From Ornithodoros turicata (Eukaryota; Arthropoda; Arachnida; Ixodida; Argasidae): 64,000 nucleotides of DNA. The notes under the pieces were generated by a model. That model saw only the letters and a program-made list of their open reading frames with translations. It searched no databases and was not told the DNA's origin. The position numbers and the translations under genes are program-made. Shown piece after piece: positions 36,869 through 56,750 of this stretch; position 1 is the stretch's first letter; each line of letters starts with the position of its first letter. The DNA is taken from the NCBI RefSeq assembly GCF_037126465.1, contig NC_088202.1, positions 121,782,123-121,846,122 on the forward strand. The letters run 5' to 3'.

Positions 36869-37279
36869 TAGATGGGTAGAAATCCAGCGAGCCGGTAGAG
36901 ATGTAGGAAGGGAGTTGCCTCAGGACAGAAGCCGCCGATATTTCGAACAGAGACTGTTCTTCTTCTGGGCACCGTCCTCATCATTGGCATGGTATTTAAA
37001 GGGTTAGGTGTGACGTGTTTAAAGGTTCATGCGAATTGTGGGTCAACAGCCCGGAGGGAAGAAAGGTCCCTACGGGTTTTTACGGCGGGAGTGAATGGCT
37101 GCTTTGTTAGAGTGTGGAGGGGATTATGTGAACGTAGTGATCTAGGCTACAGACCGGTTGCAGAAAAATGGAAGGTTCACGAACACGTGGACGAAACGGG
37201 ACAACAGACAAGAATTCGCAAGCATAGCGAAAGATAAGGAGGTTAGTGGTTACGTGGGGAAAATTCCAGAACGAGCAAA
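36869..37279 (-). repeat. Terminal pseudo-LTR piece, minus side
   Basis: 411 bp matching the start of a unit (after the A tract) up to ...CTACCCATCTA, ending about 20 bases short of the ORF1 ATG. It directly abuts the left target duplication. Confidence 0.9.
36922..36978 (-). ncRNA. Hammerhead-like motif 1 (minus, terminal)
   Basis: Same 57-nt motif as described at 47322-47378. Its 3' end lies 53 bp from the left insertion boundary. Confidence 0.55.
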
Positions 37280-37402
37280 TTTTTTTTTTTTTTTAAATAT
37301 ATATTTGTAATACAAAGTTGTGGCATGCAATAAAGAGAGCAGAAAGTAGTGGCCATGCAGAACATAACAGATGATAATGGAGGTAGATGGGAAAAGCATA
37401 TT

Positions 37403-40111
37403 TTATTTGTGAAGTGTTTCTAGGGTGCCTTGTGATTTGTTGATACCGGACGGGTGAAGAGCGTTGAACTTGTATATGAGATAAGACTCCCTATCACGTC
37501 TGTCACGTGTGGATCTAAACCCGGTTTCTAGAATATATAGTTTAATGTTGTCAAAATTGTGACCAGGAACGTTAAAGTGTTCGGCGACTGCTTTGGGGAG
37601 TTTGTTGGACGTGTCGGTTCTGTGTCCGGTAAGGCGGTTGTTCATTTGTTGGCCGGTTTCACCAATGTATTGCATAGAGCAGTCGCCGCATTCAATGCAG
37701 TATATAACATTGGAGCTTGTGCATGTGAATGCGTGGTTAACGGGGTGGGTGTAATTGCTCGCAGTGCTTTTGATGGAGTTAGCGTGTTGAACGTGCTTGC
37801 ATGTTTTGCAGCGCGGGAGGTTGCAGGGTCGTGTTCCCGTGTACGGGGCGCTCGTTTTGCTTATTTTGGCATTGACCAAGGAGTCTGCCAGGTTTCTTGC
37901 GCGTCGGTATGTCACCTGTATGGGATTTGTGAATATGTTGTTAAGTCGGTCACTGCTTTGGAGGAGGGGCTCGTGCTTCTGTAGAATGGCTTTGATGTTT
38001 GGAAGTGCGTTGGAATATCTTGTGATGAAGCTTATTTGGCACGCGTCGGGATTTTTTCGGTTTTCCAGAACCTCGTTTCGATCGAGTGTGAGTGCCTTGC
38101 GACGGAATTCGGTTAGGAGGGAGTCTGGATAGTCCCTTTGGGCAAGTGTACTGCAGAGTTCGTCAAGCTTCTCAGCGTAATCTGTGTCGTTTGAACAAAC
38201 TCTGCGTAGTCTTACACTCTGCCCATTAGGAATTCCAACCTTACAGTGACGCGGGTGGTGACTCTTGAAGTGAAGGTATTGTTGTTTGTCAGTTGGCTTT
38301 TTGTACAGGGTTGTGACGAGGTTGCCGTTGTCTAGTGATATCGTGGTGTCGAGGAAGTTAATTAAGTGAGTTGACTGTTGTGATGTGAACTTTATGTTGC
38401 TATGCGCGGTGTTCAGTAGATCTACGAACTTTTGAAATTCATGTTCCCCGTGTTCCCATATTATCAGTATATCATCGATGTATCGAAGGTACACCGTGGG
38501 TTTTAATGAGAGGGCGCTGAGAACTTTGTTTTCTAGGAACCCCATGAAGATATTTGCGTATGTGGGTGCAACAGGTGTGCCCATACTTGTACCGTGTACT
38601 TGTAGGTAGTATTCACCATTGAACTCGAAGTAGTTCAGTTTAAGAACCAAGTCCATTAGAGCGAGTATGGTTTCCGTGTCTTTTCTGGTGTTTGTAGTAG
38701 AAAGGGTATTGCAGAGGGCTGTGATTCCGTCGTTGTGTGGGATGTTAGTATACAGTGATGTCACATCCAGCGTGGCTAGTATTGTGTCGCTACCAAATGT
38801 ACGAGTGTTGTTTATATCTCTGATTATTCTGAGGAGGTGGGGTGTGTCTTGTACATGCGATGGCAGTGTTGTCGGAATATGGTTTAAATAGTGGTCCAGG
38901 AATTTCGAGAGTCTTTCTGTTGGTGTGTTGTTATTAGATACAATTGGCCTGCCGGGGATGTCAGCCGTATAGAGCTCGTTGGCGTGTACTTTGTGGATTT
39001 TGGGCAGTAAATAGAAACGACCTGCGTCTGTGTTTGATGGGGTGAGATATCTGAGGTCATCACGTGTGATGAGCTTTCGTTCGTGGAGGTCCTGTATGGT
39101 ATGGGTTATTAGCGCCGTGTACTCCTTTGTTGGGTCATGGTCCAGTTTGAGGTAGTGTTGCGTATTGTTGAGTTGCCTATGTGCTTCAGAGATATATTTA
39201 TCTGTGGGCCAGATGACGATACTCCCACCCTTATCTGCGGGCTTGATAATGATATCATCTCTGTCAGCTAGCGCATTGATGATGTCACGTTGTGTTTTAG
39301 TGAGGTTGTGACCACGCGAGCTTTGGGAAATACCGCGAAGGATGTCGTTGCTTACTTGTTTAATGTACAGGTCTAGTGCGGGTTCTCGGCCGTGATTTGG
39401 TGTCCAGGTTGATGGTAGTCGGAGGTCGTTGTTGTTTTCTTGTGTTGTATGAGCGAAGAATTCTCTAAGGCGTAGCCGTCTCGCAAAGTCTGATATGTCT
39501 TTGTGGATTTCGTATTCGTTAACAGAATTGAGTGTAGGGCAGAATGTTAACCCCCTAGAGAGGACTTGTAGTTCGTCGCTGGTTAGTGAGCGTGATATAT
39601 CTATTACGGTGCTTGCGTCAACGTTTTCTCGGGGTGGCTCAGCGATGTTGCGGAGAGTTGTGGTTGTGGTGCTGGAAATGATTTGTTCGGCTGCTGCGTG
39701 TGTCGTGTTAGTGCGTCCGGTATCCGTGTCGTTGTTGCAATTAGGTTTTCCGAGTTTTGAGTGTTCCTTGTTAGCTAGCTCGCGGTTGAGTTGTTGAATG
39801 TGTAGTTCGAGAGTGTTTGCCTCCGCGTCGGTGAGACTGATATTGTTCATATGGGCTTGGATCGTAGCGAGTTGCGCGTGGCACTGTTTCTTTAATATTT
39901 CAAGAAACGTACGGGCTGTGTTGTTAAGGGCTGATGCCCACTCTAGCTCTAGTTCAGGTGTCAGTTTTCCTAATGCAGGAACTGTTTTAGGGGTGAGGCC
40001 TTTAGGTACTGTGTTGTGAGCCAGGTGGTAGGTGTAGATCCGTAGATGATGTAGGTATCGGCTACGTTTCTCCATGAGTTTTCGCATTCGTAGAAAGTTC
40101 GTTGACTGCAT
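37403..40111 (-). CDS. PLE ORF2, unit M: reverse transcriptase with GIY-YIG endonuclease, 902 aa
   Basis: Intact frame. It is identical in length to the plus-strand copies and carries every RT and GIY-YIG motif described for unit B. The start ATG lies 21 bases after the ORF1 stop in the same frame. At base 38990 it shares the variant codon AAA (third base) with unit A, while B, C and D have AAG. Confidence 0.93.
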   Translation of the reverse strand: MQSTNFLRMRKLMEKRSRYLHHLRIYTYHLAHNTVPKGLTPKTVPALGKLTPELELEWASALNNTARTFLEILKKQCHAQLATIQAHMNNISLTDAEANTLELHIQQLNRELANKEHSKLGKPNCNNDTDTGRTNTTHAAAEQIISSTTTTTLRNIAEPPRENVDASTVIDISRSLTSDELQVLSRGLTFCPTLNSVNEYEIHKDISDFARRLRLREFFAHTTQENNNDLRLPSTWTPNHGREPALDLYIKQVSNDILRGISQSSRGHNLTKTQRDIINALADRDDIIIKPADKGGSIVIWPTDKYISEAHRQLNNTQHYLKLDHDPTKEYTALITHTIQDLHERKLITRDDLRYLTPSNTDAGRFYLLPKIHKVHANELYTADIPGRPIVSNNNTPTERLSKFLDHYLNHIPTTLPSHVQDTPHLLRIIRDINNTRTFGSDTILATLDVTSLYTNIPHNDGITALCNTLSTTNTRKDTETILALMDLVLKLNYFEFNGEYYLQVHGTSMGTPVAPTYANIFMGFLENKVLSALSLKPTVYLRYIDDILIIWEHGEHEFQKFVDLLNTAHSNIKFTSQQSTHLINFLDTTISLDNGNLVTTLYKKPTDKQQYLHFKSHHPRHCKVGIPNGQSVRLRRVCSNDTDYAEKLDELCSTLAQRDYPDSLLTEFRRKALTLDRNEVLENRKNPDACQISFITRYSNALPNIKAILQKHEPLLQSSDRLNNIFTNPIQVTYRRARNLADSLVNAKISKTSAPYTGTRPCNLPRCKTCKHVQHANSIKSTASNYTHPVNHAFTCTSSNVIYCIECGDCSMQYIGETGQQMNNRLTGHRTDTSNKLPKAVAEHFNVPGHNFDNIKLYILETGFRSTRDRRDRESYLIYKFNALHPSGINKSQGTLETLHK

Positions 40112-40132
40112 GGTAGGCTGGTGATTAGATAG

Positions 40133-41035
40133 TCAACGGTGTTTTCTGCGTGATGTGCGCGTGCGTCGTGTCTGTGGGGTCGGTGGCTGTGGGGTCAGTG
40201 GCTGGGGAGACTCGCTGTGTTCCTGGATGTCATCTGTCTGTGTTTGCGTGCTTGTGGTTTTCCGTGTCACAGTTTGCGTGAACTTTGTGTGTGTGCGGGT
40301 TGTGTTTGGAGTGTTGTCGTTTGCCGCGTGTGTATGCGTGGGTGCAGTGGTCGTTGTGGTCCCCTTTGATGCCATCGTGTGTTCTGGCGTGTTTGCGGTG
40401 CTGGCACTTGAAGTGTAAGCTGGTTGAGGATGTTGTGTTTGAGCGTTTGTCAGTGCAGGACGGCATCTATGGACCATTAGGTGTTTGATGTTGTGTGCCA
40501 TAGCTCGTACGCCTGCGTGGTTTGGGTGGATGCCGTCCCGAGCGAGATGTGCTTCAGCGTGGTATTCGAAAGCTGCGTGTGTGATAACCATAACGTTGGT
40601 GTGTACCTGACGCATGTGGATGAGGTGGTTGTTGACAGCTCGCGCCTTCCTGTCGAACTCGTGTAGCCATGTGTCCTGGTATATGTATGTTCGGTGTTTG
40701 TTCTGTCTTCGGGGAAGTATCGTTGTCAGTACTATTTCAGCGCCTGGTCTGTTGTTTGTGATGAAGGAAACTAGTGTTTCGAATTCCTGGATGACATGTT
40801 GTGCTGTCGAGCGTGCGATGTCGTTGGTCCCTACGTGGAGTATGAAGTGCGTGATGTTCGGTGGGGCGGCGGTTACGTGTGTCATGATGTCTCGTATTCT
40901 TGCGCCGCTTGAGAAGTGTATGTGAGGTCCGTGTTCTCCGTGCGGGATGTGTTCGTGTATGTACTTGTAACAGCTACCCCCTAGGAGTGCGACATGTGAG
41001 AAAGAGAGGACGGGTTGCTTACCTCCTGAGGCCAT
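40133..41035 (-). CDS. PLE ORF1, unit M: SGNH-hydrolase-like, nucleophile motif altered
   Basis: Intact 300-residue frame, but the nucleophile motif GDS at residues 19-21 reads GGS: the Asp is replaced by Gly while the catalytic Ser is kept. All plus-strand copies have GDS. GTND (69-72) and DGIH (167-170) are unchanged. Whether it retains activity is uncertain. The stop is TGA followed by CTA, in frame with ORF2. Confidence 0.85.
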   Translation of the reverse strand: MASGGKQPVLSFSHVALLGGSCYKYIHEHIPHGEHGPHIHFSSGARIRDIMTHVTAAPPNITHFILHVGTNDIARSTAQHVIQEFETLVSFITNNRPGAEIVLTTILPRRQNKHRTYIYQDTWLHEFDRKARAVNNHLIHMRQVHTNVMVITHAAFEYHAEAHLARDGIHPNHAGVRAMAHNIKHLMVHRCRPALTNAQTQHPQPAYTSSASTANTPEHTMASKGTTTTTAPTHTHAANDNTPNTTRTHTKFTQTVTRKTTSTQTQTDDIQEHSESPQPLTPQPPTPQTRRTRTSRRKHR

Positions 41036-41108
41036 CGGATCGTCAGTAGCGAACGTAGATGGGTAGAAATCCAGCGAACCGGTAGAGATGTAGGAAGGGA
41101 GTTGCCTC

Positions 41109-41165
41109 AGGACAGAAGCCGCCGATATTTCGAACAGAGACTGTTCTTCTTCTGGGCACCGTCCT
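41109..41165 (-). ncRNA. Hammerhead-like motif 2 (minus, unit M pseudo-LTR)
   Basis: Same 57-nt fold as at 47322-47378, in the pseudo-LTR upstream of ORF1 of unit M. Confidence 0.55.
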
Positions 41166-41466
41166 CATCATTGGCATGGTATTTAAAGGGTTAGGTGTGA
41201 CGTGTTTAAAGGTTCATGCGAATTGTGGGTCAACAGCCCGGAGGGAAGAAAGGTCCCTACGGGTTTTTACGGCGGGAGTGAATGGCTGCTTTGTTAGAGT
41301 GTGGAGGGGATTATGTGAACGTAGTGATCTAGGCTACAGACCGGTTGCAGAAAAATGGAAGGTTCACGAACACGTGGACGAAACGGGACAACAGACAAGA
41401 ATTCGCAAGCATAGCGAAAGATAAGGAGGTTAGTGGTTACGTGGGGAAAATTCCAGAACGAGCAAA

Positions 41467-42769
41467 TTTTTTTTTTTTTTAAATATATATTTGTAATACA
41501 AAGTTGTGGCATGCAATAAAGAGAGCAGAAAGTAGTGGCCATGCAGAACATAACAGATGATAATGGAGTTAGATGGGAAAAGCATATTTTATTTGTGAAG
41601 TGTTTCTAGGGTGCCTTGTGACTTGTTGATACCGGACGGGTGAAGAGCGTTGAATTGTATATGAGATAAGACTCCCTATCACGTCTGTCACGTGTGGATC
41701 TAAACCCGGTTTCTAGAATATATAGTTTAATGTTGTCAAAATTGTGACCAGGAACGTTAAAGTGTTCGGCGACTGCTTTGGGGAGTTTGTTGGACGTGTC
41801 GGTTCTGTGTCCGGTAAGGCGGTTGTTCATTTGTTGGCCGGTTTCACCAATGTATTGCATAGAGCAGTCGCCGCATTCAATGCAGTATATAACATTGGAG
41901 CTTGTGCATGTGAATGCGTGGTTAACGGGGTGGGTGTAATTGCTCGCAGTGCTTTTGATGGAGTTAGCGTGTTGAACGTGCTTGCATGTTTTGCAGCGCG
42001 GGAGGTTGCAGGGTCGTGTTCCCGTGTACGGGGCGCTCGTTTTGCTTATTTTGGCATTGACCAAGGAGTCTGCCAGGTTTCTTGCGCGTCGGTATGTCAC
42101 CTGTATGGGATTTGTGAATATGTTGTTAAGTCGGTCACTGCTTTGGAGGAGGGGCTCGTGCTTCTGTAGAATGGCTTTGATGTTTGGAAGTGCGTTGGAA
42201 TATCTTGTGATGAAGCTTATTTGGCACGCGTCGGGATTTTTTCGGTTTTCCAGAACCTCGTTTCGATCGAGTGTGAGTGCCTTGCGACGGAATTCGGTTA
42301 GGAGGGAGTCTGGATAGTCCCTTTGGGCAAGTGTACTGCAGAGTTCGTCAAGCTTCTCAGCGTAATCTGTGTCGTTTGAACAAACTCTGCGTAGTCTTAC
42401 ACTCTGCCCATTAGGAATTCCAACCTTACAGTGACGCGGGTGGTGACTCTTGAAGTGAAGGTATTGTTGTTTGTCAGTTGGCTTTTTGTACAGGGTTGTG
42501 ACGAGGTTGCCGTTGTCTAGTGATATCGTGGTGTCGAGGAAGTTAATTAAGTGAGTTGACTGTTGTGATGTGAACTTTATGTTGCTATGCGCGGTGTTCA
42601 GTAGATCTACGAACTTTTGAAATTCATGTTCCCCGTGTTCCCATATTATCAGTATATCATCGATGTATCGAAGGTACACCGTGGGTTTTAATGAGAGGGC
42701 GCTGAGAACTTTGTTTTCTAGGAACCCCATGAAGATATTTGCGTATGTGGGTGCAACAGGTGTGCCCAT
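41467..42769 (-). mobile_element. 5'-truncated PLE unit (minus strand, 1303 bp)
   Basis: Begins inside the RT at motif B and runs to an A tract (plus-strand T run 41467-41480), followed directly by unit M. Its truncated end meets unit A at the head-to-head junction, with at most one base of overlap. Confidence 0.92.
41606..42769 (-). pseudogene. PLE ORF2, truncated minus copy
   Basis: Homology starts at MGTPVAPTYAN (residue 510 of the full protein) and continues through YIDD and GIY-YIG. A one-base deletion near 41653 replaces the last ~25 residues with an unrelated tail. The open frame extends upstream through the junction into antisense pseudo-LTR sequence, creating a fortuitous N-terminus. 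Non-functional as a full RT. Confidence 0.88.
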
Positions 42770-43068
42770 TGCTCGTTCTGGAATTTTCCCCACGTAACCA
42801 CTAACCTCCTTATCTTTCGCTATGCTTGCGAATTCTTGTCTGTTGTCCCGTTTCGTCCACGTGTTCGTGAACCTTCCATTTTTCTGCAACCGGTCTGTAG
42901 CCTAGATCACTACGTTCACATAATCCCCTCCACACTCTAACAAAGCAGCCATTCACTCCCGCCGTAAAAACCCGTAGGGACCTTTCTTCCCTCCGGGCTG
43001 TTGACCCACAATTCGCATGAACCTTTAAACACGTCACACCTAACCCTTTAAATACCATGCCAATGATG

Positions 43069-43125
43069 AGGACGGTGCCCAGAAGAAGAACAGTCTCTGT
43101 TCGAAATATCGGCGGCTTCTGTCCT
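43069..43125 (+). ncRNA. Hammerhead-like motif 3 (unit A)
   Basis: Same 57-nt motif as at 47322-47378; predicted cleavage after 43110. Confidence 0.55.
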
Positions 43126-43198
43126 GAGGCAACTCCCTTCCTACATCTCTACCGGTTCGCTGGATTTCTACCCATCTACGTTCGCTACTGACGATCCG

Positions 43199-44169
43199 AT
43201 GGCCTCAGGAGGTAAGCAACCCGTCCTCTCTTTCTCACATGTCGCACTCCTAGGGGATAGCTGTTACAAGTACATACACGAACACATCCCGCACGGAGAA
43301 CACGGACCAATCCAGAAGATGTGGGTTCGATCCCTACAGCTGGCTAACCTTTTCAGTGACTTTCATCTTTCATCGCTCACATACACTTCTCAAGCGGCGC
43401 AAGAATACGAGACATCATGACACACGTAACCGCCGCCCCACCGAACATCACGCACTTCATACTCCACGTAGGGACCAACGACATCGCACGCTCGACAGCA
43501 CAACATGTCATCCAGGAATTCGAAACACTAGTTTCCTTCATCACAAACAACAGACCAGGCGCTGAAATAGTACTGACAACGATACTTCCCCGAAGACAGA
43601 ACAAACACCGAACATACATATACCAGGACACATGGCTACACGAGTTCGACAGGAAGGCGCGAGCTGTCAACAACCACCTCATCCACATGCGTCAGGTACA
43701 CACCAACGTTATGGTTATCACACACGCAGCTTTCGAATACCACGCTGAAGCACATCTCGCTCGGGACGGCATCCACCCAAACCACGCAGGCGTACGAGCT
43801 ATGGCACACAACATCAAACACCTAATGGTCCATAGATGCCGTCCTGCACTGACAAACGCTCAAACACAACATCCTCAACCAGCTTACACTTCAAGTGCCA
43901 GCACCGCAAACACGCCAGAACACACGATGGCATCAAAGGGGACCACAGCGACCACTGCACCCACGCATACACACGCGGCAAACGACAACACTCCAAACAC
44001 AACCCGCACACACACAAAGTTCACGCAAACTGTGACACTGAAAACCACAAGCACGCAAACACAGACAGATGACATCCAGGAACACAGCGAGTCTCCCCAG
44101 CCACTGACCCCACAGCCACCGACCCCACAGACACGACGCACGCGCACATCACGCAGAAAACACCGTTGA
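43199..44169 (+). pseudogene. PLE ORF1, unit A, disrupted by a 68-bp SINE-like insertion
   Basis: The first 37 codons match ORF1 of the other units (with GDS intact). Then 68 extra bases (about 43309-43376) shift the frame and cause an early stop. The remaining 250 residues reopen from the ATG at 43417, keeping GTND and DGIH but not the GDS block. The normal TGA-CTA end is retained, in frame with ORF2. A full SGNH protein cannot be made from this unit. Confidence 0.88.
43309..43376 (+). mobile_element. 68-bp insertion with tRNA B-box-like motif
   Basis: Absent from all other units. Contains GGGTTCGATCCC, close to the pol III B box, followed by CTTTTCAGTGACTTTCATC, resembling a SINE tail region. 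No target duplication is evident. It may be a SINE scrap picked up by template switching during reverse transcription. Confidence 0.5.
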
Positions 44170-44190
44170 CTATCTAATCACCAGCCTACC

Positions 44191-46899
44191 ATGCAGTCAA
44201 CGAACTTTCTACGAATGCGAAAACTCATGGAGAAACGTAGCCGATACCTACATCATCTACGGATCTACACCTACCACCTGGCTCACAACACAGTACCTAA
44301 AGGCCTCACCCCTAAAACAGTTCCTGCATTAGGAAAACTGACACCTGAACTAGAGCTAGAGTGGGCATCAGCCCTTAACAACACAGCCCGTACGTTTCTT
44401 GAAATATTAAAGAAACAGTGCCACGCGCAACTCGCTACGATCCAAGCCCATATGAACAATATCAGTCTCACCGACGCGGAGGCAAACACTCTCGAACTAC
44501 ACATTCAACAACTCAACCGCGAGCTAGCTAACAAGGAACACTCAAAACTCGGAAAACCTAATTGCAACAACGACACGGATACCGGACGCACTAACACGAC
44601 ACACGCAGCAGCCGAACAAATCATTTCCAGCACCACAACCACAACTCTCCGCAACATCGCTGAGCCACCCCGAGAAAACGTTGACGCAAGCACCGTAATA
44701 GATATATCACGCTCACTAACCAGCGACGAACTACAAGTCCTCTCTAGGGGGTTAACATTCTGCCCTACACTCAATTCTGTTAACGAATACGAAATCCACA
44801 AAGACATATCAGACTTTGCGAGACGGCTACGCCTTAGAGAATTCTTCGCTCATACAACACAAGAAAACAACAACGACCTCCGACTACCATCAACCTGGAC
44901 ACCAAATCACGGCCGAGAACCCGCACTAGACCTGTACATTAAACAAGTAAGCAACGACATCCTTCGCGGTATTTCCCAAAGCTCGCGTGGTCACAACCTC
45001 ACTAAAACACAACGTGACATCATCAATGCGCTAGCTGACAGAGATGATATCATTATCAAGCCCGCAGATAAGGGTGGGAGTATCGTCATCTGGCCCACAG
45101 ATAAATATATCTCTGAAGCACATAGGCAACTCAACAATACGCAACACTACCTCAAACTGGACCATGACCCAACAAAGGAGTACACGGCGCTAATAACCCA
45201 TACCATACAGGACCTCCACGAACGAAAGCTCATCACACGTGATGACCTCAGATATCTCACCCCATCAAACACAGACGCAGGTCGTTTCTATTTACTGCCC
45301 AAAATCCACAAAGTACACGCCAACGAGCTCTATACGGCTGACATCCCCGGCAGGCCAATTGTATCTAATAACAACACACCAACAGAAAGACTCTCGAAAT
45401 TCCTGGACCACTATTTAAACCATATTCCGACAACACTGCCATCGCATGTACAAGACACACCCCACCTCCTCAGAATAATCAGAGATATAAACAACACTCG
45501 TACATTTGGTAGCGACACAATACTAGCCACGCTGGATGTGACATCACTGTATACTAACATCCCACACAACGACGGAATCACAGCCCTCTGCAATACCCTT
45601 TCTACTACAAACACCAGAAAAGACACGGAAACCATACTCGCTCTAATGGACTTGGTTCTTAAACTGAACTACTTCGAGTTCAATGGTGAATACTACCTAC
45701 AAGTACACGGTACAAGTATGGGCACACCTGTTGCACCCACATACGCAAATATCTTCATGGGGTTCCTAGAAAACAAAGTTCTCAGCGCCCTCTCATTAAA
45801 ACCCACGGTGTACCTTCGATACATCGATGATATACTGATAATATGGGAACACGGGGAACATGAATTTCAAAAGTTCGTAGATCTACTGAACACCGCGCAT
45901 AGCAACATAAAGTTCACATCACAACAGTCAACTCACTTAATTAACTTCCTCGACACCACGATATCACTAGACAACGGCAACCTCGTCACAACCCTGTACA
46001 AAAAGCCAACTGACAAACAACAATACCTTCACTTCAAGAGTCACCACCCGCGTCACTGTAAGGTTGGAATTCCTAATGGGCAGAGTGTAAGACTACGCAG
46101 AGTTTGTTCAAACGACACAGATTACGCTGAGAAGCTTGACGAACTCTGCAGTACACTTGCCCAAAGGGACTATCCAGACTCCCTCCTAACCGAATTCCGT
46201 CGCAAGGCACTCACACTCGATCGAAACGAGGTTCTGGAAAACCGAAAAAATCCCGACGCGTGCCAAATAAGCTTCATCACAAGATATTCCAACGCACTTC
46301 CAAACATCAAAGCCATTCTACAGAAGCACGAGCCCCTCCTCCAAAGCAGTGACCGACTTAACAACATATTCACAAATCCCATACAGGTGACATACCGACG
46401 CGCAAGAAACCTGGCAGACTCCTTGGTCAATGCCAAAATAAGCAAAACGAGCGCCCCGTACACGGGAACACGACCCTGCAACCTCCCGCGCTGCAAAACA
46501 TGCAAGCACGTTCAACACGCTAACTCCATCAAAAGCACTGCGAGCAATTACACCCACCCCGTTAACCACGCATTCACATGCACAAGCTCCAATGTTATAT
46601 ACTGCATTGAATGCGGCGACTGCTCTATGCAATACATTGGTGAAACCGGCCAACAAATGAACAACCGCCTTACCGGACACAGAACCGACACGTCCAACAA
46701 ACTCCCCAAAGCAGTCGCCGAACACTTTAACGTTCCTGGTCACAATTTTGACAACATTAAACTATATATTCTAGAAACCGGGTTTAGATCCACACGTGAC
46801 AGACGTGATAGGGAGTCTTATCTCATATACAAGTTCAACGCTCTTCACCCGTCCGGTATCAACAAATCACAAGGCACCCTAGAAACACTTCACAAATAA
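44191..46899 (+). CDS. PLE ORF2, unit A: RT with GIY-YIG endonuclease, 902 aa
   Basis: Intact. It differs from unit B by Arg to His at residue 21 (HHLRI versus RHLRI) and by a synonymous third-base change at 45312 (AAA versus AAG). All RT and endonuclease motifs are present. AATAAA overlaps the TAA stop. Confidence 0.95.
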   Translation: MQSTNFLRMRKLMEKRSRYLHHLRIYTYHLAHNTVPKGLTPKTVPALGKLTPELELEWASALNNTARTFLEILKKQCHAQLATIQAHMNNISLTDAEANTLELHIQQLNRELANKEHSKLGKPNCNNDTDTGRTNTTHAAAEQIISSTTTTTLRNIAEPPRENVDASTVIDISRSLTSDELQVLSRGLTFCPTLNSVNEYEIHKDISDFARRLRLREFFAHTTQENNNDLRLPSTWTPNHGREPALDLYIKQVSNDILRGISQSSRGHNLTKTQRDIINALADRDDIIIKPADKGGSIVIWPTDKYISEAHRQLNNTQHYLKLDHDPTKEYTALITHTIQDLHERKLITRDDLRYLTPSNTDAGRFYLLPKIHKVHANELYTADIPGRPIVSNNNTPTERLSKFLDHYLNHIPTTLPSHVQDTPHLLRIIRDINNTRTFGSDTILATLDVTSLYTNIPHNDGITALCNTLSTTNTRKDTETILALMDLVLKLNYFEFNGEYYLQVHGTSMGTPVAPTYANIFMGFLENKVLSALSLKPTVYLRYIDDILIIWEHGEHEFQKFVDLLNTAHSNIKFTSQQSTHLINFLDTTISLDNGNLVTTLYKKPTDKQQYLHFKSHHPRHCKVGIPNGQSVRLRRVCSNDTDYAEKLDELCSTLAQRDYPDSLLTEFRRKALTLDRNEVLENRKNPDACQISFITRYSNALPNIKAILQKHEPLLQSSDRLNNIFTNPIQVTYRRARNLADSLVNAKISKTSAPYTGTRPCNLPRCKTCKHVQHANSIKSTASNYTHPVNHAFTCTSSNVIYCIECGDCSMQYIGETGQQMNNRLTGHRTDTSNKLPKAVAEHFNVPGHNFDNIKLYILETGFRSTRDRRDRESYLIYKFNALHPSGINKSQGTLETLHK

Positions 46900-47321
46900 A
46901 ATATGCTTTTCCCATCTACCTCCATTATCATCTGTTATGTTCTGCATGGCCACTACTTTCTGCTCTCTTTATTGCATGCCACAACTTTGTATTACAAATA
47001 TATATTTAAAAAAAAAAAAATTTGCTCGTTCTGGAATTTTCCCCACGTAACCACTAACCTCCTTATCTTTCGCTATGCTTGCGAATTCTTGTCTGTTGTC
47101 CCGTTTCGTCCACGTGTTCGTGAACCTTCCATTTTTCTGCAACCGGTCTGTAGCCTAGATCACTACGTTCACATAATCCCCTCCACACTCTAACAAAGCA
47201 GCCATTCACTCCCGCCGTAAAAACCCGTAGGGACCTTTCTTCCCTCCGGGCTGTTGACCCACAATTCGCATGAACCTTTAAACACGTCACACCTAACCCT
47301 TTAAATACCATGCCAATGATG

Positions 47322-47378
47322 AGGACGGTGCCCAGAAGAAGAACAGTCTCTGTTCGAAATATCGGCGGCTTCTGTCCT
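47322..47378 (+). ncRNA. Hammerhead-ribozyme-like motif 4 (unit B), reference description
   Basis: The fold has an outer stem I, AGGAC with GTCCT (47322-47326/47374-47378), an internal loop, then an inner stem I, GCC/GGC. The core CAGAAGA (hammerhead consensus CUGANGA) is followed by one extra A, a perfect 6-bp stem II GAACAG-TCT-CTGTTC, GAAA, then TATC, a minimal self-complementary stem III. Cleavage would fall after C at 47363. The internal loop in stem I could contact loop II, as in natural hammerheads. The core U at position 4 is A in every copy in the block, which should strongly reduce activity. Confidence 0.6.
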
Positions 47379-47451
47379 GAGGCAACTCCCTTCCTACATC
47401 TCTACCGGTTCGCTGGATTTCTACCCATCTACGTTCGCTACTGACGATCCG

Positions 47452-48354
47452 ATGGCCTCAGGAGGTAAGCAACCCGTCCTCTCTTTCTCACATGTCGCAC
47501 TCCTAGGGGATAGCTGTTACAAGTACATACACGAACACATCCCGCACGGAGAACACGGACCTCACATACACTTCTCAAGCGGCGCAAGAATACGAGACAT
47601 CATGACACACGTAACCGCCGCCCCACCGAACATCACGCACTTCATACTCCACGTAGGGACCAACGACATCGCACGCTCGACAGCACAACATGTCATCCAG
47701 GAATTCGAAACACTAGTTTCCTTCATCACAAACAACAGACCAGGCGCTGAAATAGTACTGACAACGATACTTCCCCGAAGACAGAACAAACACCGAACAT
47801 ACATATACCAGGACACATGGCTACACGAGTTCGACAGGAAGGCGCGAGCTGTCAACAACCACCTCATCCACATGCGTCAGGTACACACCAACGTTATGGT
47901 TATCACACACGCAGCTTTCGAATACCACGCTGAAGCACATCTCGCTCGGGACGGCATCCACCCAAACCACGCAGGCGTACGAGCTATGGCACACAACATC
48001 AAACACCTAATGGTCCATAGATGCCGTCCTGCACTGACAAACGCTCAAACACAACATCCTCAACCAGCTTACACTTCAAGTGCCAGCACCGCAAACACGC
48101 CAGAACACACGATGGCATCAAAGGGGACCACAACGACCACTGCACCCACGCATACACACGCGGCAAACGACAACACTCCAAACACAACCCGCACACACAC
48201 AAAGTTCACGCAAACTGTGACACGGAAAACCACAAGCACGCAAACACAGACAGATGACATCCAGGAACACAGCGAGTCTCCCCAGCCACTGACCCCACAG
48301 CCACCGACCCCACAGACACGACGCACGCGCACATCACGCAGAAAACACCGTTGA
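47452..48354 (+). CDS. PLE ORF1, unit B: SGNH/GDSL-type hydrolase, 300 aa
   Basis: Residues 10-190 have the four SGNH blocks: LLGDS at 17-21 (nucleophile Ser21), Gly44 in FSSGARI, GTND at 69-72 (Asn71), and DGIHPN at 167-172 (Asp167, His170). SGNH hydrolases cleave ester bonds, and related esterase domains are known in ORF1 of CR1/L2-type LINEs. The tail (190-300) is Thr/His/Gln/Pro-rich and ends in a basic TRRTRTSRRKHR segment, possibly for nucleic-acid binding. No signal peptide is seen. The ATG has a favourable context (CCGATGG). The stop TGA is followed by CTA and six more sense codons before the ORF2 ATG, all in one frame, suggesting readthrough. Substrate unknown. Confidence 0.85.
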   Translation: MASGGKQPVLSFSHVALLGDSCYKYIHEHIPHGEHGPHIHFSSGARIRDIMTHVTAAPPNITHFILHVGTNDIARSTAQHVIQEFETLVSFITNNRPGAEIVLTTILPRRQNKHRTYIYQDTWLHEFDRKARAVNNHLIHMRQVHTNVMVITHAAFEYHAEAHLARDGIHPNHAGVRAMAHNIKHLMVHRCRPALTNAQTQHPQPAYTSSASTANTPEHTMASKGTTTTTAPTHTHAANDNTPNTTRTHTKFTQTVTRKTTSTQTQTDDIQEHSESPQPLTPQPPTPQTRRTRTSRRKHR

Positions 48355-48375
48355 CTATCTAATCACCAGCCTACC
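48352..48375 (+). promoter_or_regulatory. Predicted UGA-CUA stop-codon readthrough site between ORF1 and ORF2
   Basis: TGA CTA TCT AAT CAC CAG CCT ACC precedes the ORF2 ATG with no other in-frame stop. UGA followed by CUA is the best-known leaky termination context. The same eight codons occur in all five ORF1-ORF2 junctions (units M, A, B, C, D). Confidence 0.6.
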
Positions 48376-51084
48376 ATGCAGTCAACGAACTTTCTACGAA
48401 TGCGAAAACTCATGGAGAAACGTAGCCGATACCTACGTCATCTACGGATCTACACCTACCACCTGGCTCACAACACAGTACCTAAAGGCCTCACCCCTAA
48501 AACAGTTCCTGCATTAGGAAAACTGACACCTGAACTAGAGCTAGAGTGGGCATCAGCCCTTAACAACACAGCCCGTACGTTTCTTGAAATATTAAAGAAA
48601 CAGTGCCACGCGCAACTCGCTACGATCCAAGCCCATATGAACAATATCAGTCTCACCGACGCGGAGGCAAACACTCTCGAACTACACATTCAACAACTCA
48701 ACCGCGAGCTAGCTAACAAGGAACACTCAAAACTCGGAAAACCTAATTGCAACAACGACACGGATACCGGACGCACTAACACGACACACGCAGCAGCCGA
48801 ACAAATCATTTCCAGCACCACAACCACAACTCTCCGCAACATCGCTGAGCCACCCCGAGAAAACGTTGACGCAAGCACCGTAATAGATATATCACGCTCA
48901 CTAACCAGCGACGAACTACAAGTCCTCTCTAGGGGGTTAACATTCTGCCCTACACTCAATTCTGTTAACGAATACGAAATCCACAAAGACATATCAGACT
49001 TTGCGAGACGGCTACGCCTTAGAGAATTCTTCGCTCATACAACACAAGAAAACAACAACGACCTCCGACTACCATCAACCTGGACACCAAATCACGGCCG
49101 AGAACCCGCACTAGACCTGTACATTAAACAAGTAAGCAACGACATCCTTCGCGGTATTTCCCAAAGCTCGCGTGGTCACAACCTCACTAAAACACAACGT
49201 GACATCATCAATGCGCTAGCTGACAGAGATGATATCATTATCAAGCCCGCAGATAAGGGTGGGAGTATCGTCATCTGGCCCACAGATAAATATATCTCTG
49301 AAGCACATAGGCAACTCAACAATACGCAACACTACCTCAAACTGGACCATGACCCAACAAAGGAGTACACGGCGCTAATAACCCATACCATACAGGACCT
49401 CCACGAACGAAAGCTCATCACACGTGATGACCTCAGATATCTCACCCCATCAAACACAGACGCAGGTCGTTTCTATTTACTGCCCAAAATCCACAAGGTA
49501 CACGCCAACGAGCTCTATACGGCTGACATCCCCGGCAGGCCAATTGTATCTAATAACAACACACCAACAGAAAGACTCTCGAAATTCCTGGACCACTATT
49601 TAAACCATATTCCGACAACACTGCCATCGCATGTACAAGACACACCCCACCTCCTCAGAATAATCAGAGATATAAACAACACTCGTACATTTGGTAGCGA
49701 CACAATACTAGCCACGCTGGATGTGACATCACTGTATACTAACATCCCACACAACGACGGAATCACAGCCCTCTGCAATACCCTTTCTACTACAAACACC
49801 AGAAAAGACACGGAAACCATACTCGCTCTAATGGACTTGGTTCTTAAACTGAACTACTTCGAGTTCAATGGTGAATACTACCTACAAGTACACGGTACAA
49901 GTATGGGCACACCTGTTGCACCCACATACGCAAATATCTTCATGGGGTTCCTAGAAAACAAAGTTCTCAGCGCCCTCTCATTAAAACCCACGGTGTACCT
50001 TCGATACATCGATGATATACTGATAATATGGGAACACGGGGAACATGAATTTCAAAAGTTCGTAGATCTACTGAACACCGCGCATAGCAACATAAAGTTC
50101 ACATCACAACAGTCAACTCACTTAATTAACTTCCTCGACACCACGATATCACTAGACAACGGCAACCTCGTCACAACCCTGTACAAAAAGCCAACTGACA
50201 AACAACAATACCTTCACTTCAAGAGTCACCACCCGCGTCACTGTAAGGTTGGAATTCCTAATGGGCAGAGTGTAAGACTACGCAGAGTTTGTTCAAACGA
50301 CACAGATTACGCTGAGAAGCTTGACGAACTCTGCAGTACACTTGCCCAAAGGGACTATCCAGACTCCCTCCTAACCGAATTCCGTCGCAAGGCACTCACA
50401 CTCGATCGAAACGAGGTTCTGGAAAACCGAAAAAATCCCGACGCGTGCCAAATAAGCTTCATCACAAGATATTCCAACGCACTTCCAAACATCAAAGCCA
50501 TTCTACAGAAGCACGAGCCCCTCCTCCAAAGCAGTGACCGACTTAACAACATATTCACAAATCCCATACAGGTGACATACCGACGCGCAAGAAACCTGGC
50601 AGACTCCTTGGTCAATGCCAAAATAAGCAAAACGAGCGCCCCGTACACGGGAACACGACCCTGCAACCTCCCGCGCTGCAAAACATGCAAGCACGTTCAA
50701 CACGCTAACTCCATCAAAAGCACTGCGAGCAATTACACCCACCCCGTTAACCACGCATTCACATGCACAAGCTCCAATGTTATATACTGCATTGAATGCG
50801 GCGACTGCTCTATGCAATACATTGGTGAAACCGGCCAACAAATGAACAACCGCCTTACCGGACACAGAACCGACACGTCCAACAAACTCCCCAAAGCAGT
50901 CGCCGAACACTTTAACGTTCCTGGTCACAATTTTGACAACATTAAACTATATATTCTAGAAACCGGGTTTAGATCCACACGTGACAGACGTGATAGGGAG
51001 TCTTATCTCATATACAAGTTCAACGCTCTTCACCCGTCCGGTATCAACAAATCACAAGGCACCCTAGAAACACTTCACAAATAA
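48376..51084 (+). CDS. PLE ORF2, unit B: reverse transcriptase with GIY-YIG endonuclease, 902 aa
   Basis: Domains in order: an N-terminal region (1-285) with a short coiled-coil-like stretch near 95-120; PADKGGSIVIW (291-301) and LLPKIHK (368-374), typical of Penelope RTs; motif A LDVTSLYTNIPH (448-459); motif B GTSMGTPVAPTYAN (507-520); motif C YIDD (544-547); NFLDTTIS (585-592); a Cys/His linker CNLPRCKTCKHVQH (763-776); and GIY-YIG endonuclease from IYCI (803-806) through QYIGET (814-819), Arg826, His845 and Glu875. The endonuclease nicks target DNA and the RT copies RNA from the nick. Residue 21 is Arg, where other units have His. Confidence 0.95.
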   Translation: MQSTNFLRMRKLMEKRSRYLRHLRIYTYHLAHNTVPKGLTPKTVPALGKLTPELELEWASALNNTARTFLEILKKQCHAQLATIQAHMNNISLTDAEANTLELHIQQLNRELANKEHSKLGKPNCNNDTDTGRTNTTHAAAEQIISSTTTTTLRNIAEPPRENVDASTVIDISRSLTSDELQVLSRGLTFCPTLNSVNEYEIHKDISDFARRLRLREFFAHTTQENNNDLRLPSTWTPNHGREPALDLYIKQVSNDILRGISQSSRGHNLTKTQRDIINALADRDDIIIKPADKGGSIVIWPTDKYISEAHRQLNNTQHYLKLDHDPTKEYTALITHTIQDLHERKLITRDDLRYLTPSNTDAGRFYLLPKIHKVHANELYTADIPGRPIVSNNNTPTERLSKFLDHYLNHIPTTLPSHVQDTPHLLRIIRDINNTRTFGSDTILATLDVTSLYTNIPHNDGITALCNTLSTTNTRKDTETILALMDLVLKLNYFEFNGEYYLQVHGTSMGTPVAPTYANIFMGFLENKVLSALSLKPTVYLRYIDDILIIWEHGEHEFQKFVDLLNTAHSNIKFTSQQSTHLINFLDTTISLDNGNLVTTLYKKPTDKQQYLHFKSHHPRHCKVGIPNGQSVRLRRVCSNDTDYAEKLDELCSTLAQRDYPDSLLTEFRRKALTLDRNEVLENRKNPDACQISFITRYSNALPNIKAILQKHEPLLQSSDRLNNIFTNPIQVTYRRARNLADSLVNAKISKTSAPYTGTRPCNLPRCKTCKHVQHANSIKSTASNYTHPVNHAFTCTSSNVIYCIECGDCSMQYIGETGQQMNNRLTGHRTDTSNKLPKAVAEHFNVPGHNFDNIKLYILETGFRSTRDRRDRESYLIYKFNALHPSGINKSQGTLETLHK

Positions 51085-51508
51085 AATATGCTTTTCCCAT
51101 CTACCTCCATTATCATCTGTTATGTTCTGCATGGCCACTACTTTCTGCTCTCTTTATTGCATGCCACAACTTTGTATTACAAATATATATTTAAAAAAAA
51201 AAAAAAATTTGCTTGTTCTGGAATTTTCCCCACGTAACCACTAACCTCCTTATCTTTCGCTATGCTTGCGAATTCTTGTCTGTTGTCCCGTTTCGTCCAC
51301 GTGTTCGTGAACCTTCCATTTTTCTGCAACCGGTCTGTAGCCTAGATCACTACGTTCACATAATCCCCTCCACACTCTAACAAAGCAGCCATTCACTCCC
51401 GCCGTAAAAACCCGTAGGGACCTTTCTTCCCTCCGGGCTGTTGACCCACAATTCGCATGAACCTTTAAACACGTCACACCTAACCCTTTAAATACCATGC
51501 CAATGATG

Positions 51509-51565
51509 AGGACGGTGCCCAGAAGAAGAACAGTCTCTGTTCGAAATATCGGCGGCTTCTGTCCT
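51509..51565 (+). ncRNA. Hammerhead-like motif 5 (unit C)
   Basis: Same 57-nt motif as at 47322-47378; predicted cleavage after 51550. Confidence 0.55.
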
Positions 51566-51638
51566 GAGGCAACTCCCTTCCTACATCTCTACCGGTTCGC
51601 TGGATTTCTACCCATCTACGTTCGCTACTGACGATCCG

Positions 51639-52541
51639 ATGGCCTCAGGAGGTAAGCAACCCGTCCTCTCTTTCTCACATGTCGCACTCCTAGGGGATAG
51701 CTGTTACAAGTACATACACGAACACATCCCGCACGGAGAACACGGACCTCACATACACTTCTCAAGCGGCGCAAGAATACGAGACATCATGACACACGTA
51801 ACCGCCGCCCCACCGAACATCACGCACTTCATACTCCACGTAGGGACCAACGACATCGCACGCTCGACAGCACAACATGTCATCCAGGAATTCGAAACAC
51901 TAGTTTCCTTCATCACAAACAACAGACCAGGCGCTGAAATAGTACTGACAACGATACTTCCCCGAAGACAGAACAAACACCGAACATACATATACCAGGA
52001 CACATGGCTACACGAGTTCGACAGGAAGGCGCGAGCTGTCAACAACCACCTCATCCACATGCGTCAGGTACACACCAACGTTATGGTTATCACACACGCA
52101 GCTTTCGAATACCACGCTGAAGCACATCTCGCTCGGGACGGCATCCACCCAAACCACGCAGGCGTACGAGCTATGGCACACAACATCAAACACCTAATGG
52201 TCCATAGATGCCGTCCTGCACTGACAAACGCTCAAACACAACATCCTCAACCAGCTTACACTTCAAGTGCCAGCACCGCAAACACGCCAGAACACACGAT
52301 GGCATCAAAGGGGACCACAACGACCACTGCACCCACGCATACACACGCGGCAAACGACAACACTCCAAACACAACCCGCACACACACAAAGTTCACGCAA
52401 ACTGTGACACGGAAAACCACAAGCACGCAAACACAGACAGATGACATCCAGGAACACAGCGAGTCTCCCCAGCCACTGACCCCACAGCCACCGACCCCAC
52501 AGACACGACGCACGCGCACATCACGCAGAAAACACCGTTGA
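51639..52541 (+). CDS. PLE ORF1, unit C: SGNH-type hydrolase, 300 aa
   Basis: Identical protein to unit B. All catalytic blocks are intact, and the TGA-CTA junction with ORF2 is preserved. Confidence 0.85.
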   Translation: MASGGKQPVLSFSHVALLGDSCYKYIHEHIPHGEHGPHIHFSSGARIRDIMTHVTAAPPNITHFILHVGTNDIARSTAQHVIQEFETLVSFITNNRPGAEIVLTTILPRRQNKHRTYIYQDTWLHEFDRKARAVNNHLIHMRQVHTNVMVITHAAFEYHAEAHLARDGIHPNHAGVRAMAHNIKHLMVHRCRPALTNAQTQHPQPAYTSSASTANTPEHTMASKGTTTTTAPTHTHAANDNTPNTTRTHTKFTQTVTRKTTSTQTQTDDIQEHSESPQPLTPQPPTPQTRRTRTSRRKHR

Positions 52542-52562
52542 CTATCTAATCACCAGCCTACC

Positions 52563-55271
52563 ATGCAGTCAACGAACTTTCTACGAATGCGAAAACTCAT
52601 GGAGAAACGTAGCCGATACCTACATCATCTACGGATCTACACCTACCACCTGGCTCACAACACAGTACCTAAAGGCCTCACCCCTAAAACAGTTCCTGCA
52701 TTAGGAAAACTGACACCTGAACTAGAGCTAGAGTGGGCATCAGCCCTTAACAACACAGCCCGTACGTTTCTTGAAATATTAAAGAAACAGTGCCACGCGC
52801 AACTCGCTACGATCCAAGCCCATATGAACAATATCAGTCTCACCGACGCGGAGGCAAACACTCTCGAACTACACATTCAACAACTCAACCGCGAGCTAGC
52901 TAACAAGGAACACTCAAAACTCGGAAAACCTAATTGCAACAACGACACGGATACCGGACGCACTAACACGACACACGCAGCAGCCGAACAAATCATTTCC
53001 AGCACCACAACCACAACTCTCCGCAACATCGCTGAGCCACCCCGAGAAAACGTTGACGCAAGCACCGTAATAGATATATCACGCTCACTAACCAGCGACG
53101 AACTACAAGTCCTCTCTAGGGGGTTAACATTCTGCAATACACTCAATTCTGTTAACGAATACGAAATCCACAAAGACATATCAGACTTTGCGAGACGGCT
53201 ACGCCTTAGAGAATTCTTCGCTCATACAACACAAGAAAACAACAACGACCTCCGACTACCATCAACCTGGACACCAAATCACGGCCGAGAACCCGCACTA
53301 GACCTGTACATTAAACAAGTAAGCAACGACATCCTTCGCGGTATTTCCCAAAGCTCGCGTGGTCACAACCTCACTAAAACACAACGTGACATCATCAATG
53401 CGCTAGCTGACAGAGATGATATCATTATCAAGCCCGCAGATAAGGGTGGGAGTATCGTCATCTGGCCCACAGATAAATATATCTCTGAAGCACATAGGCA
53501 ACTCAACAATACGCAACACTACCTCAAACTGGACCATGACCCAACAAAGGAGTACACGGCGCTAATAACCCATACCATACAGGACCTCCACGAACGAAAG
53601 CTCATCACACGTGATGACCTCAGATATCTCACCCCATCAAACACAGACGCAGGTCGTTTCTATTTACTGCCCAAAATCCACAAGGTACACGCCAACGAGC
53701 TCTATACGGCTGACATCCCCGGCAGGCCAATTGTATCTAATAACAACACACCAACAGAAAGACTCTCGAAATTCCTGGACCACTATTTAAACCATATTCC
53801 GACAACACTGCCATCGCATGTACAAGACACACCCCACCTCCTCAGAATAATCAGAGATATAAACAACACTCGTACATTTGGTAGCGACACAATACTAGCC
53901 ACGCTGGATGTGACATCACTGTATACTAACATCCCACACAACGACGGAATCACAGCCCTCTGCAATACCCTTTCTACTACAAACACCAGAAAAGACACGG
54001 AAACCATACTCGCTCTAATGGACTTGGTTCTTAAACTGAACTACTTCGAGTTCAATGGTGAATACTACCTACAAGTACACGGTACAAGTATGGGCACACC
54101 TGTTGCACCCACATACGCAAATATCTTCATGGGGTTCCTAGAAAACAAAGTTCTCAGCGCCCTCTCATTAAAACCCACGGTGTACCTTCGATACATCGAT
54201 GATATACTGATAATATGGGAACACGGGGAACATGAATTTCAAAAGTTCGTAGATCTACTGAACACCGCGCATAGCAACATAAAGTTCACATCACAACAGT
54301 CAACTCACTTAATTAACTTCCTCGACACCACGATATCACTAGACAACGGCAACCTCGTCACAACCCTGTACAAAAAGCCAACTGACAAACAACAATACCT
54401 TCACTTCAAGAGTCACCACCCGCGTCACTGTAAGGTTGGAATTCCTAATGGGCAGAGTGTAAGACTACGCAGAGTTTGTTCAAACGACACAGATTACGCT
54501 GAGAAGCTTGACGAACTCTGCAGTACACTTGCCCAAAGGGACTATCCAGACTCCCTCCTAACCGAATTCCGTCGCAAGGCACTCACACTCGATCGAAACG
54601 AGGTTCTGGAAAACCGAAAAAATCCCGACGCGTGCCAAATAAGCTTCATCACAAGATATTCCAACGCACTTCCAAACATCAAAGCCATTCTACAGAAGCA
54701 CGAGCCCCTCCTCCAAAGCAGTGACCGACTTAACAACATATTCACAAATCCCATACAGGTGACATACCGACGCGCAAGAAACCTGGCAGACTCCTTGGTC
54801 AATGCCAAAATAAGCAAAACGAGCGCCCCGTACACGGGAACACGACCCTGCAACCTCCCGCGCTGCAAAACATGCAAGCACGTTCAACACGCTAACTCCA
54901 TCAAAAGCACTGCGAGCAATTACACCCACCCCGTTAACCACGCATTCACATGCACAAGCTCCAATGTTATATACTGCATTGAATGCGGCGACTGCTCTAT
55001 GCAATACATTGGTGAAACCGGCCAACAAATGAACAACCGCCTTACCGGACACAGAACCGACACGTCCAACAAACTCCCCAAAGCAGTCGCCGAACACTTT
55101 AACGTTCCTGGTCACAATTTTGACAACATTAAACTATATATTCTAGAAACCGGGTTTAGATCCACACGTGACAGACGTGATAGGGAGTCTTATCTCATAT
55201 ACAAGTTCAACGCTCTTCACCCGTCCGGTATCAACAAATCACAAGGCACCCTAGAAACACTTCACAAATAA
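52563..55271 (+). CDS. PLE ORF2, unit C: RT with GIY-YIG endonuclease, 902 aa
   Basis: Intact; one distinguishing change, Pro to Asn at residue 192 (TFCNTLNS), caused by two adjacent base substitutions at 53136-53137. RT and endonuclease motifs are unaffected. Confidence 0.95.
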   Translation: MQSTNFLRMRKLMEKRSRYLHHLRIYTYHLAHNTVPKGLTPKTVPALGKLTPELELEWASALNNTARTFLEILKKQCHAQLATIQAHMNNISLTDAEANTLELHIQQLNRELANKEHSKLGKPNCNNDTDTGRTNTTHAAAEQIISSTTTTTLRNIAEPPRENVDASTVIDISRSLTSDELQVLSRGLTFCNTLNSVNEYEIHKDISDFARRLRLREFFAHTTQENNNDLRLPSTWTPNHGREPALDLYIKQVSNDILRGISQSSRGHNLTKTQRDIINALADRDDIIIKPADKGGSIVIWPTDKYISEAHRQLNNTQHYLKLDHDPTKEYTALITHTIQDLHERKLITRDDLRYLTPSNTDAGRFYLLPKIHKVHANELYTADIPGRPIVSNNNTPTERLSKFLDHYLNHIPTTLPSHVQDTPHLLRIIRDINNTRTFGSDTILATLDVTSLYTNIPHNDGITALCNTLSTTNTRKDTETILALMDLVLKLNYFEFNGEYYLQVHGTSMGTPVAPTYANIFMGFLENKVLSALSLKPTVYLRYIDDILIIWEHGEHEFQKFVDLLNTAHSNIKFTSQQSTHLINFLDTTISLDNGNLVTTLYKKPTDKQQYLHFKSHHPRHCKVGIPNGQSVRLRRVCSNDTDYAEKLDELCSTLAQRDYPDSLLTEFRRKALTLDRNEVLENRKNPDACQISFITRYSNALPNIKAILQKHEPLLQSSDRLNNIFTNPIQVTYRRARNLADSLVNAKISKTSAPYTGTRPCNLPRCKTCKHVQHANSIKSTASNYTHPVNHAFTCTSSNVIYCIECGDCSMQYIGETGQQMNNRLTGHRTDTSNKLPKAVAEHFNVPGHNFDNIKLYILETGFRSTRDRRDRESYLIYKFNALHPSGINKSQGTLETLHK

Positions 55272-55696
55272 AATATGCTTTTCCCATCTACCTCCATTAT
55301 CATCTGTTATGTTCTGCATGGCCACTACTTTCTGCTCTCTTTATTGCATGCCACAACTTTGTATTACAAATATATATTTAAAAAAAAAAAAAAAATTTGC
55401 TCGTTCTGGAATTTTCCCCACGTAACCACTAACCTCCTTATCTTTCGCTATGCTTGCGAATTCTTGTCTGTTGTCCCGTTTCGTCCACGTGTTCGTGAAC
55501 CTTCCATTTTTCTGCAACCGGTCTGTAGCCTAGATCACTACGTTCACATAATCCCCTCCACACTCTAACAAAGCAGCCATTCACTCCCGCCGTAAAAACC
55601 CGTAGGGACCTTTCTTCCCTCCGGGCTGTTGACCCACAATTCGCATGAACCTTTAAACACGTCACACCTAACCCTTTAAATACCATGCCAATGATG

Positions 55697-55753
55697 AGGA
55701 CGGTGCCCAGAAGAAGAACAGTCTCTGTTCGAAATATCGGCGGCTTCTGTCCT
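55697..55753 (+). ncRNA. Hammerhead-like motif 6 (unit D)
   Basis: Same 57-nt motif as at 47322-47378; predicted cleavage after 55738. Confidence 0.55.
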
Positions 55754-55826
55754 GAGGCAACTCCCTTCCTACATCTCTACCGGTTCGCTGGATTTCTACC
55801 CATCTACGTTCGCTACTGACGATCCG

Positions 55827-56729: not shown

Positions 56730-56750
56730 CTATCTAATCACCAGCCTACC

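Follow-up and report, generated by a model that had tools for sequence, protein, structure and literature searches.

A block of tandem and inverted Penelope-like units

The window, that is, the whole 64-kb stretch of the Ornithodoros turicata genome analyzed here, contains a block of Penelope-like element (PLE) units at 36869-59955, with units in both orientations. The 11-mer TTATTTCTGCA occurs exactly twice in the 64-kb window, at 36858 and 59956, i.e., at both block ends, and these occurrences represent the left (36858..36868) and right (59956..59966) copies of an 11-bp target-site duplication (no strand assigned; the first base of the right copy is ambiguous with the element end). The unit is ~4187 bp long and the spacing between units is 4185-4188 bp, except for one step of 4253 bp, which spans a 67-nt insert in the first plus-strand unit. 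BLASTN of one unit against the window resolved the minus arm into one complete, one 5'-truncated, and one terminal partial unit reaching down to 36869, and the plus arm into four units followed by a terminal partial unit ending at 59956. Specifically, the minus arm consists, from left to right, of the terminal partial unit (36869..37299; unit positions 1-429), which is the pLTR-like end of this arm, the complete inverted unit (37298..41485; 99.9% identity to the unit at 47003-51189), with ORF2 (902 aa) at 37403..40111 and ORF1 (300 aa) at 40133..41035, and the 5'-truncated unit (41484..42769; unit positions 2901-4187), all on the minus strand. The two arms are joined head to head at 42769, where the first plus unit (42769..47004) begins at unit position 20. 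On the plus strand follow the complete unit with the reported ORF1 (47003..51189, delimited by BLASTN and unit spacing), two further complete units (51188..55376, with ORF1 at 51639-52541 and ORF2 at 52563-55271; and 55383..59564, with ORF1 at 55827-56729 and ORF2 at 56751-59459), and the terminal partial unit (59569..59956; unit positions 6-393) that forms the pLTR-like end of the plus arm. In the unit at 47003..51189, ORF1 (300 aa) occupies 47452..48354 and ORF2 (902 codons) 48376..51084, the latter beginning 21 nt after the ORF1 stop. Tandem and inverted units, terminal partial repeats, and a short target duplication, a hallmark of PLEs, are all present here, and tandem and inverted units with pLTRs have been reported for Penelope elements (PMC3846280). 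The simplest reading is that the block, a near-identical array inside one target duplication, represents a single insertion event, or one insertion that was amplified afterwards.

The copies apparently form a well-preserved and recent set. Complete ORF2 is present in five units, with 1-3 base differences from the reference unit in the other four, and the ORF1 frame is intact in four of these five. In the remaining one, the first plus unit (complete ORF2 at 44191-46899), the ORF1 frame is broken by the 67-nt insert (43309-43375), and the intact ORF1 of the inverted unit carries a D20G change that adjoins the catalytic Ser. The position of ORF1 is equal in all five units, and the variation between copies is too small for selection on ORF1 to be measurable from the window. 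The 67-nt insert contains GGTTCGATCCC, which we take to resemble a tRNA B box, and is perhaps a truncated SINE. Elsewhere in the window, retroelement remnants were found at 441-2257 (RT and RNase H), 13069-14725 (RT and RNase H of LTR type), and 29693-32871 (RNase H, together with a weak zinc-knuckle ORF in which a 77-residue repeat occurs four times).

Element class and the SGNH-like ORF1

ORF2 matched the reverse transcriptase family RVT_1 (E 1.4e-11) and, in its C-terminal part, GIY-YIG (PF01541; E 1.3e-4), the latter with 22.6 bits, i.e., exactly at the cut-off of 22.6. The GIY-YIG block aligns with that of the homologues, some of which (e.g., P0012, P0049, and P0051) have the domain precomputed; PF01541 is not precomputed for P0004 and P0005, the closest full-length ORF2 relatives among the matches listed. 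Homologues at E <= 0.001 numbered 2294, and P0004 is 76% identical to ORF2 over the region searched. An RT tree was built from 62 homologues, taken from the 113 of at least 600 aa among those listed (best 120 of 2294), plus four rows from the window and the loci described below; it holds no references labelled Penelope, Poseidon, or Neptune, and the PLE sub-clade is therefore left unnamed. Here, P0004, P0005, and P0012 form a group with the window ORF2, next to a 35-member set that contains the named Ixodes proteins entered in the tree. The first named match by E-value among those listed, from the newt Pleurodeles (58% coverage), is placed elsewhere. Judged from these relations, the host is likely to be a tick or a related animal. 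By the sequence of its ORF2, then, the element is Penelope-like with GIY-YIG, and the predicted element class is borne out by the two Pfam matches, the homologues, the RT tree, and the array with its target-site duplication.

Two other assignments were considered and rejected. CR1/L2 LINEs have a LINE-type RT and an APE endonuclease; no APE-type domain was found in ORF2 at Pfam E up to 1, and LINE identity is ruled out by an ORF2 of Penelope type with GIY-YIG. Membership in Athena/Terminon, which is defined by an endonuclease-deficient RT, does not apply either, since ORF2 carries GIY-YIG. An Rfam scan of the window at the gathering threshold gave no match, and no hammerhead ribozyme, which is reported in the terminal repeat of many but not all PLEs, was found in 46800-51700 up to E 10. 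No SGNH fusion to ORF2 was seen at E up to 0.1 in the seven proteins scanned of the best 120 of 2294 homologues, and viral contigs yielded no relatives with ORF1, ORF2, the ORF2 alignment, or the L002-type ORF1 alignment (see below for L002). Two of these seven long Penelope-like ORFs, P0115 (1326 aa) and P0122 (1311 aa), show an N-terminal match to an OTU cysteine protease, below the Pfam cut-off for P0122, which may represent a further accessory enzyme on the PLE class.

ORF1 matched the Pfam family Lipase_GDSL_2 (E 3e-9, above the curated cut-off), and its residues ~14-190 correspond to an SGNH hydrolase-like domain, followed by a Thr/Pro-rich tail with an Arg-rich stretch at the end. All four SGNH sequence blocks (S, G, N, and D/H) are present, and Ser21, Gly44, Asn71, Asp167, and His170, which are invariant in a 10-sequence alignment, are at the positions that the original prediction gave, so that the claimed 300-aa ORF with SGNH residues is confirmed. 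A predicted structure (pLDDT 80.3, pTM 0.77) adopts the SGNH fold and matches SGNH structures by both Foldseek and VIA-align. The top matches of the model are PAF-AH and bacterial esterases, and the esterase of the zebrafish L2 LINE ZfL2-1 (4c1b) is not among the best 50 matches of either fold search. By sequence, 4c1b is the nearest solved chain (E 1.3e-8, 38 bits), ahead of PAF-AH, which supports the proposed likeness to the ORF1 esterase of CR1/L2 LINEs; identity to the LINE enzyme is only 25%, with all catalytic residues kept. Two positions of ORF1 esterases, H191 and S228 of ZfL2-1, are transposon-specific (PMC3905857). The His is kept as H67 of ORF1, within ILHVGTND, and the Ser corresponds to Thr104, an equivalence that was counted by hand from the alignment. 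A coiled coil generally lies ahead of the esterase in esterase-bearing ORF1 proteins (PMC3905857); judged from the domain start at ~residue 14, there is no room for one here. ORF1 residues 1-195 are also unusually rich in histidine (24 His in 195). Based on the model, ORF1 would encode a putative esterase of the SGNH fold.

A homologue search with ORF1 returned one protein, P0003, at E <= 0.001 of 1606 candidates, and this top-scoring match (29% identity, 46 bits) lies above the LINE enzyme with its 38 bits. Scanning GTDB contigs with the ORF2 alignment gave four loci (L001-L004), which represent animal-type retroelement DNA in deposited bacterial genomes and are likely host contamination of symbiont or metagenome assemblies. 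L002 contains a distant PLE in two tandem units, whose 611-aa ORF1 has an SGNH-like C-terminal domain; this ORF1 matches no Pfam family at E up to 1, and its assignment comes from its relatives and from the way the catalytic blocks align. In L003, the RT/GIY-YIG ORF2 is preceded by an ORF1 that matches PF13472 weakly (E 0.0041, short of the cut-off), and no SGNH-like ORF1 was seen at the L001 locus. Thus, SGNH-like ORFs upstream of other PLE RTs, which had been proposed as a check, do exist in L002 and L003, the RTs of which form a separate deep branch of the RT tree. A five-row profile (A2) recovered 39 proteins at E <= 0.01 of 4033 candidates; 37 of them matched the L002 or L003 ORF1 best, including several named from fish (Channa, Liparis, Larimichthys, and Oryzias), and two, P0003 and P0160 (Saccoglossus, 36 bits), matched the window ORF1 best. 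P0006, with a window-like RT, and P0153, an L002-type ORF1, are each on a 3417 bp contig.

The ORF1-ORF2 junction

At the junction (48352..48378, plus strand), the ORF1 stop TGA is followed by CTA, and the frame then stays open over seven sense codons to the ORF2 ATG, an arrangement shared without change by all five units. The high-readthrough consensus in human is UGA CUA, and UGA CUA U (CACNA2D4) is among the high-readthrough contexts in human cell lines (PMC4359377). The chance of an in-frame UGA followed by CUA is ~0.2%, a rough figure reckoned after the fact. Readthrough of UGA-CUA could operate in the window element. Alternatively, ORF2 may be translated solely by reinitiation at its own ATG, with the in-frame UGA-CUA being coincidental. 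The ATG lies 21 nt past the stop in a good context (ACCATGC), P0004, the closest ORF2 relative among the matches listed, likewise has a Met start in the matching region, and no significant stimulatory RNA structure was found 3' of the ORF1 stop (z -1.1; 25 of 200 shuffled sequences fold equally well or better). Set against the match to the human consensus and its low, post hoc chance expectation, this evidence gives reinitiation alone about an even prospect in our view; reinitiation would be the slightly likelier route to ORF2, and UGA-CUA readthrough the bolder one. Leaky scanning to ORF2 is unlikely because ORF1 has 11 ATGs past its own start, spread over three frames.

The distant PLEs show a different arrangement. 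L002 has its ORF2 in the -1 frame, overlapping ORF1 by 85 nt (3056-3140; 8497-8581 in the second copy), and no ATG occurs between the frame opening and 150 nt beyond the ORF1 stop. Inside the overlap and in the ORF1 frame is TTTAAAC (at 3119, and at 8560 in the second copy); no other canonical slippery heptamer occurs at any of the 609 codon positions of this ORF1. The site encodes an LN dipeptide, which is found close to the C-terminus of 25 of the 32 ORF1s aligned, L002 included, the others being judged from protein rather than DNA. L003 also has ORF2 in the -1 frame (1045-1096), with an ATG at 1090 that overlaps the ORF1 stop, and neither LN nor a slippery site at its junction. It is conceivable, if somewhat doubtful, that esterase-bearing PLEs make their RT in a Gag-Pol-like manner, with abundant ORF1 protein and a minority product of recoding, by UGA-CUA readthrough here and by a -1 slip at UUUAAAC in L002. 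A literature search on recoding returned no Penelope-like case among the matches listed, and recoding at the junction may best be regarded as a lead, not a result.

Origin and possible role of the predicted ORF1 esterase

The original prediction regarded the pairing of a PLE with an SGNH ORF1 as undescribed and itself named prior cataloguing as grounds to refute this. Such pairings are in fact in print: Schneider et al. (2013) found SGNH ORF1 proteins even in Penelope-like elements of RepBase (PMC3905857), and Rodriguez et al. (2017) described GDSL ORFs that accompany Terminons and Penelope-like families of the Athena type (PMC5408684), as was likewise reported for Terminons elsewhere (PMC6431247). 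The idea of a first case is therefore rejected, and since these pairings have been published from 2013 onward, the window element represents a well-preserved new example. It shares with the RepBase PLE esterases a PLE-encoded SGNH domain with conserved active-site residues (PMC3905857); in the window ORF1, the esterase domain sits at the N-terminus without a preceding coiled coil. With ZfL2-1 it shares the ORF1 position and the His of the LHVGTND block, whereas ZfL2-1 has a LINE RT, a coiled coil before the esterase, and Ser228 in place of Thr104. The Athena/Terminon PLEs of bdelloid rotifers also combine a Penelope-class RT with GDSL esterase/lipase ORFs but are endonuclease-deficient and telomere-associated, with Terminons of up to 40 kb (PMC5408684, PMC6431247), as opposed to 4.2 kb and GIY-YIG here. 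In the L002/L003-type PLEs, too, an SGNH-like ORF1 immediately precedes an ORF2 with RT and GIY-YIG, but these PLEs have the SGNH domain at the C-terminus of a longer ORF1, GLN instead of GTN, and ORF2 in the -1 frame. Finally, the GIY-YIG Penelope of Adineta vaga shares the RT and GIY-YIG, tandem and inverted units, pLTRs, and a short target-site duplication but is described with one ORF, and the main text describing it does not use the words esterase or ORF1 (PMC3846280).

With respect to where the esterase came from, a tree of 20 chosen SGNH rows (13 L002-like proteins, L002, L003, the window ORF1, the LINE enzyme, P0003, P0160, and one cellular enzyme) paired the window ORF1 with the LINE esterase (90/81), although this pairing is unstarred and on long branches. 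The tree placed the window ORF1 far from the L002/L003-type ORF1s (starred split, 95/90), and one clade of all PLE ORF1s was not rejected (p-AU 0.214). Previous work has favored a single transposon-wide esterase origin with exchange between elements (PMC3905857) and has also argued for independent capture, given that LINE esterases do not cluster with the GDSL ORFs of rotifer Athena/Vesta (PMC5408684). Such independent capture would, for the window element, mean that the SGNH ORF1 was taken from a host gene alone, apart from the LINE esterases and the other PLE ORF1s, which fits the latter study, the starred distance from the L002/L003-type ORF1s, and the possibility that the nearest collection proteins, P0003 and P0160, are cellular. 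We consider this scenario unlikely: the LINE enzyme is ahead of PAF-AH in sequence, it pairs with ORF1 in a tree that includes, as noted, a single cellular enzyme, and both P0003 and P0160 have 4c1b as their first match among solved chains. Probably, the ORF1 esterase was drawn from a shared retroelement esterase pool and was not a fresh host capture. That is, of the convergent or horizontal capture originally proposed, a sharing of the same enzyme across classes of retroelement is somewhat favored because the nearest solved sequence is a LINE esterase, while the tree is weak and leaves a single PLE ORF1 clade unrejected.

As for function, we propose with moderate confidence that the element is a GIY-YIG PLE with two genes, the first of which, ORF1, encodes a predicted SGNH-fold esterase that likely takes the RNA-protein particle to membranes, a role that has been proposed for esterase-bearing LINEs. 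By analogy with ZfL2-1, whose esterase hydrolyzes substrate and binds anionic lipids (PMC3905857), the N-terminal enzyme domain would bind a lipid or acylated substrate at membranes, and the tail, rich in Thr/Pro and ending in Arg, would attach to the element RNA in place of the arginine-rich motif of LINE ORF1 proteins. The ORF1 protein would thus coat or escort the RNA by its basic tail and tether it to membranes by its SGNH domain, the ORF2 protein would be produced in a lesser amount from the same RNA, and the RT and GIY-YIG would carry out insertion at a nicked target site, which would account for the 11-bp duplication and for units in tandem and inverted arrangement. The proposal is also favored by the SGNH-like ORF1s that accompany the PLE RTs of L002 and L003. 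It is weakened by the missing coiled coil, Thr104 for Ser, and fold searches led by PAF-AH and bacterial esterases; by P0003 scoring above the LINE enzyme and a GIY-YIG match exactly at the cut-off; and by the broken ORF1 of one unit, the lost Asp20 of another, and the finding that the ZfL2-1 ORF1 protein is dispensable in HeLa cells (PMC3905857).

The damage to ORF1 in two of the five units could also mean that ORF1 is a passenger SGNH gene that was spread by recent amplification and has no role in transposition. PLEs can hold unrelated DNA between repeats (PMC3846280), and in near-identical units the intactness of ORF1 reflects recency. However, a passenger would not be expected to keep every catalytic residue at such low identity to the LINE enzyme, nor to have SGNH-like counterparts at the equal upstream position in PLEs as distant as L002 and L003, and we regard this explanation as less likely still than a separate host capture. 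Lastly, near-identical long tandem and inverted arrays are difficult to assemble, but an assembly artefact, or an ORF1 of another element that landed in a PLE, is highly improbable given the equal position of ORF1 in five of five units, the single 11-bp duplication that flanks the entire block, and the tandem and inverted units known from PLEs (PMC3846280).

In conclusion, the predicted membrane-directed esterase of this two-gene PLE bears on a question, the role of the esterase in retrotransposition, that has been left open (PMC3905857), and its intact, near-identical units make the element a practical source for asking it. Further, if the ORF1-ORF2 junction is recoded, the PLE class would set its structural-to-enzyme ratio by translation, much like retroviruses do, with recoding signals that differ by lineage.
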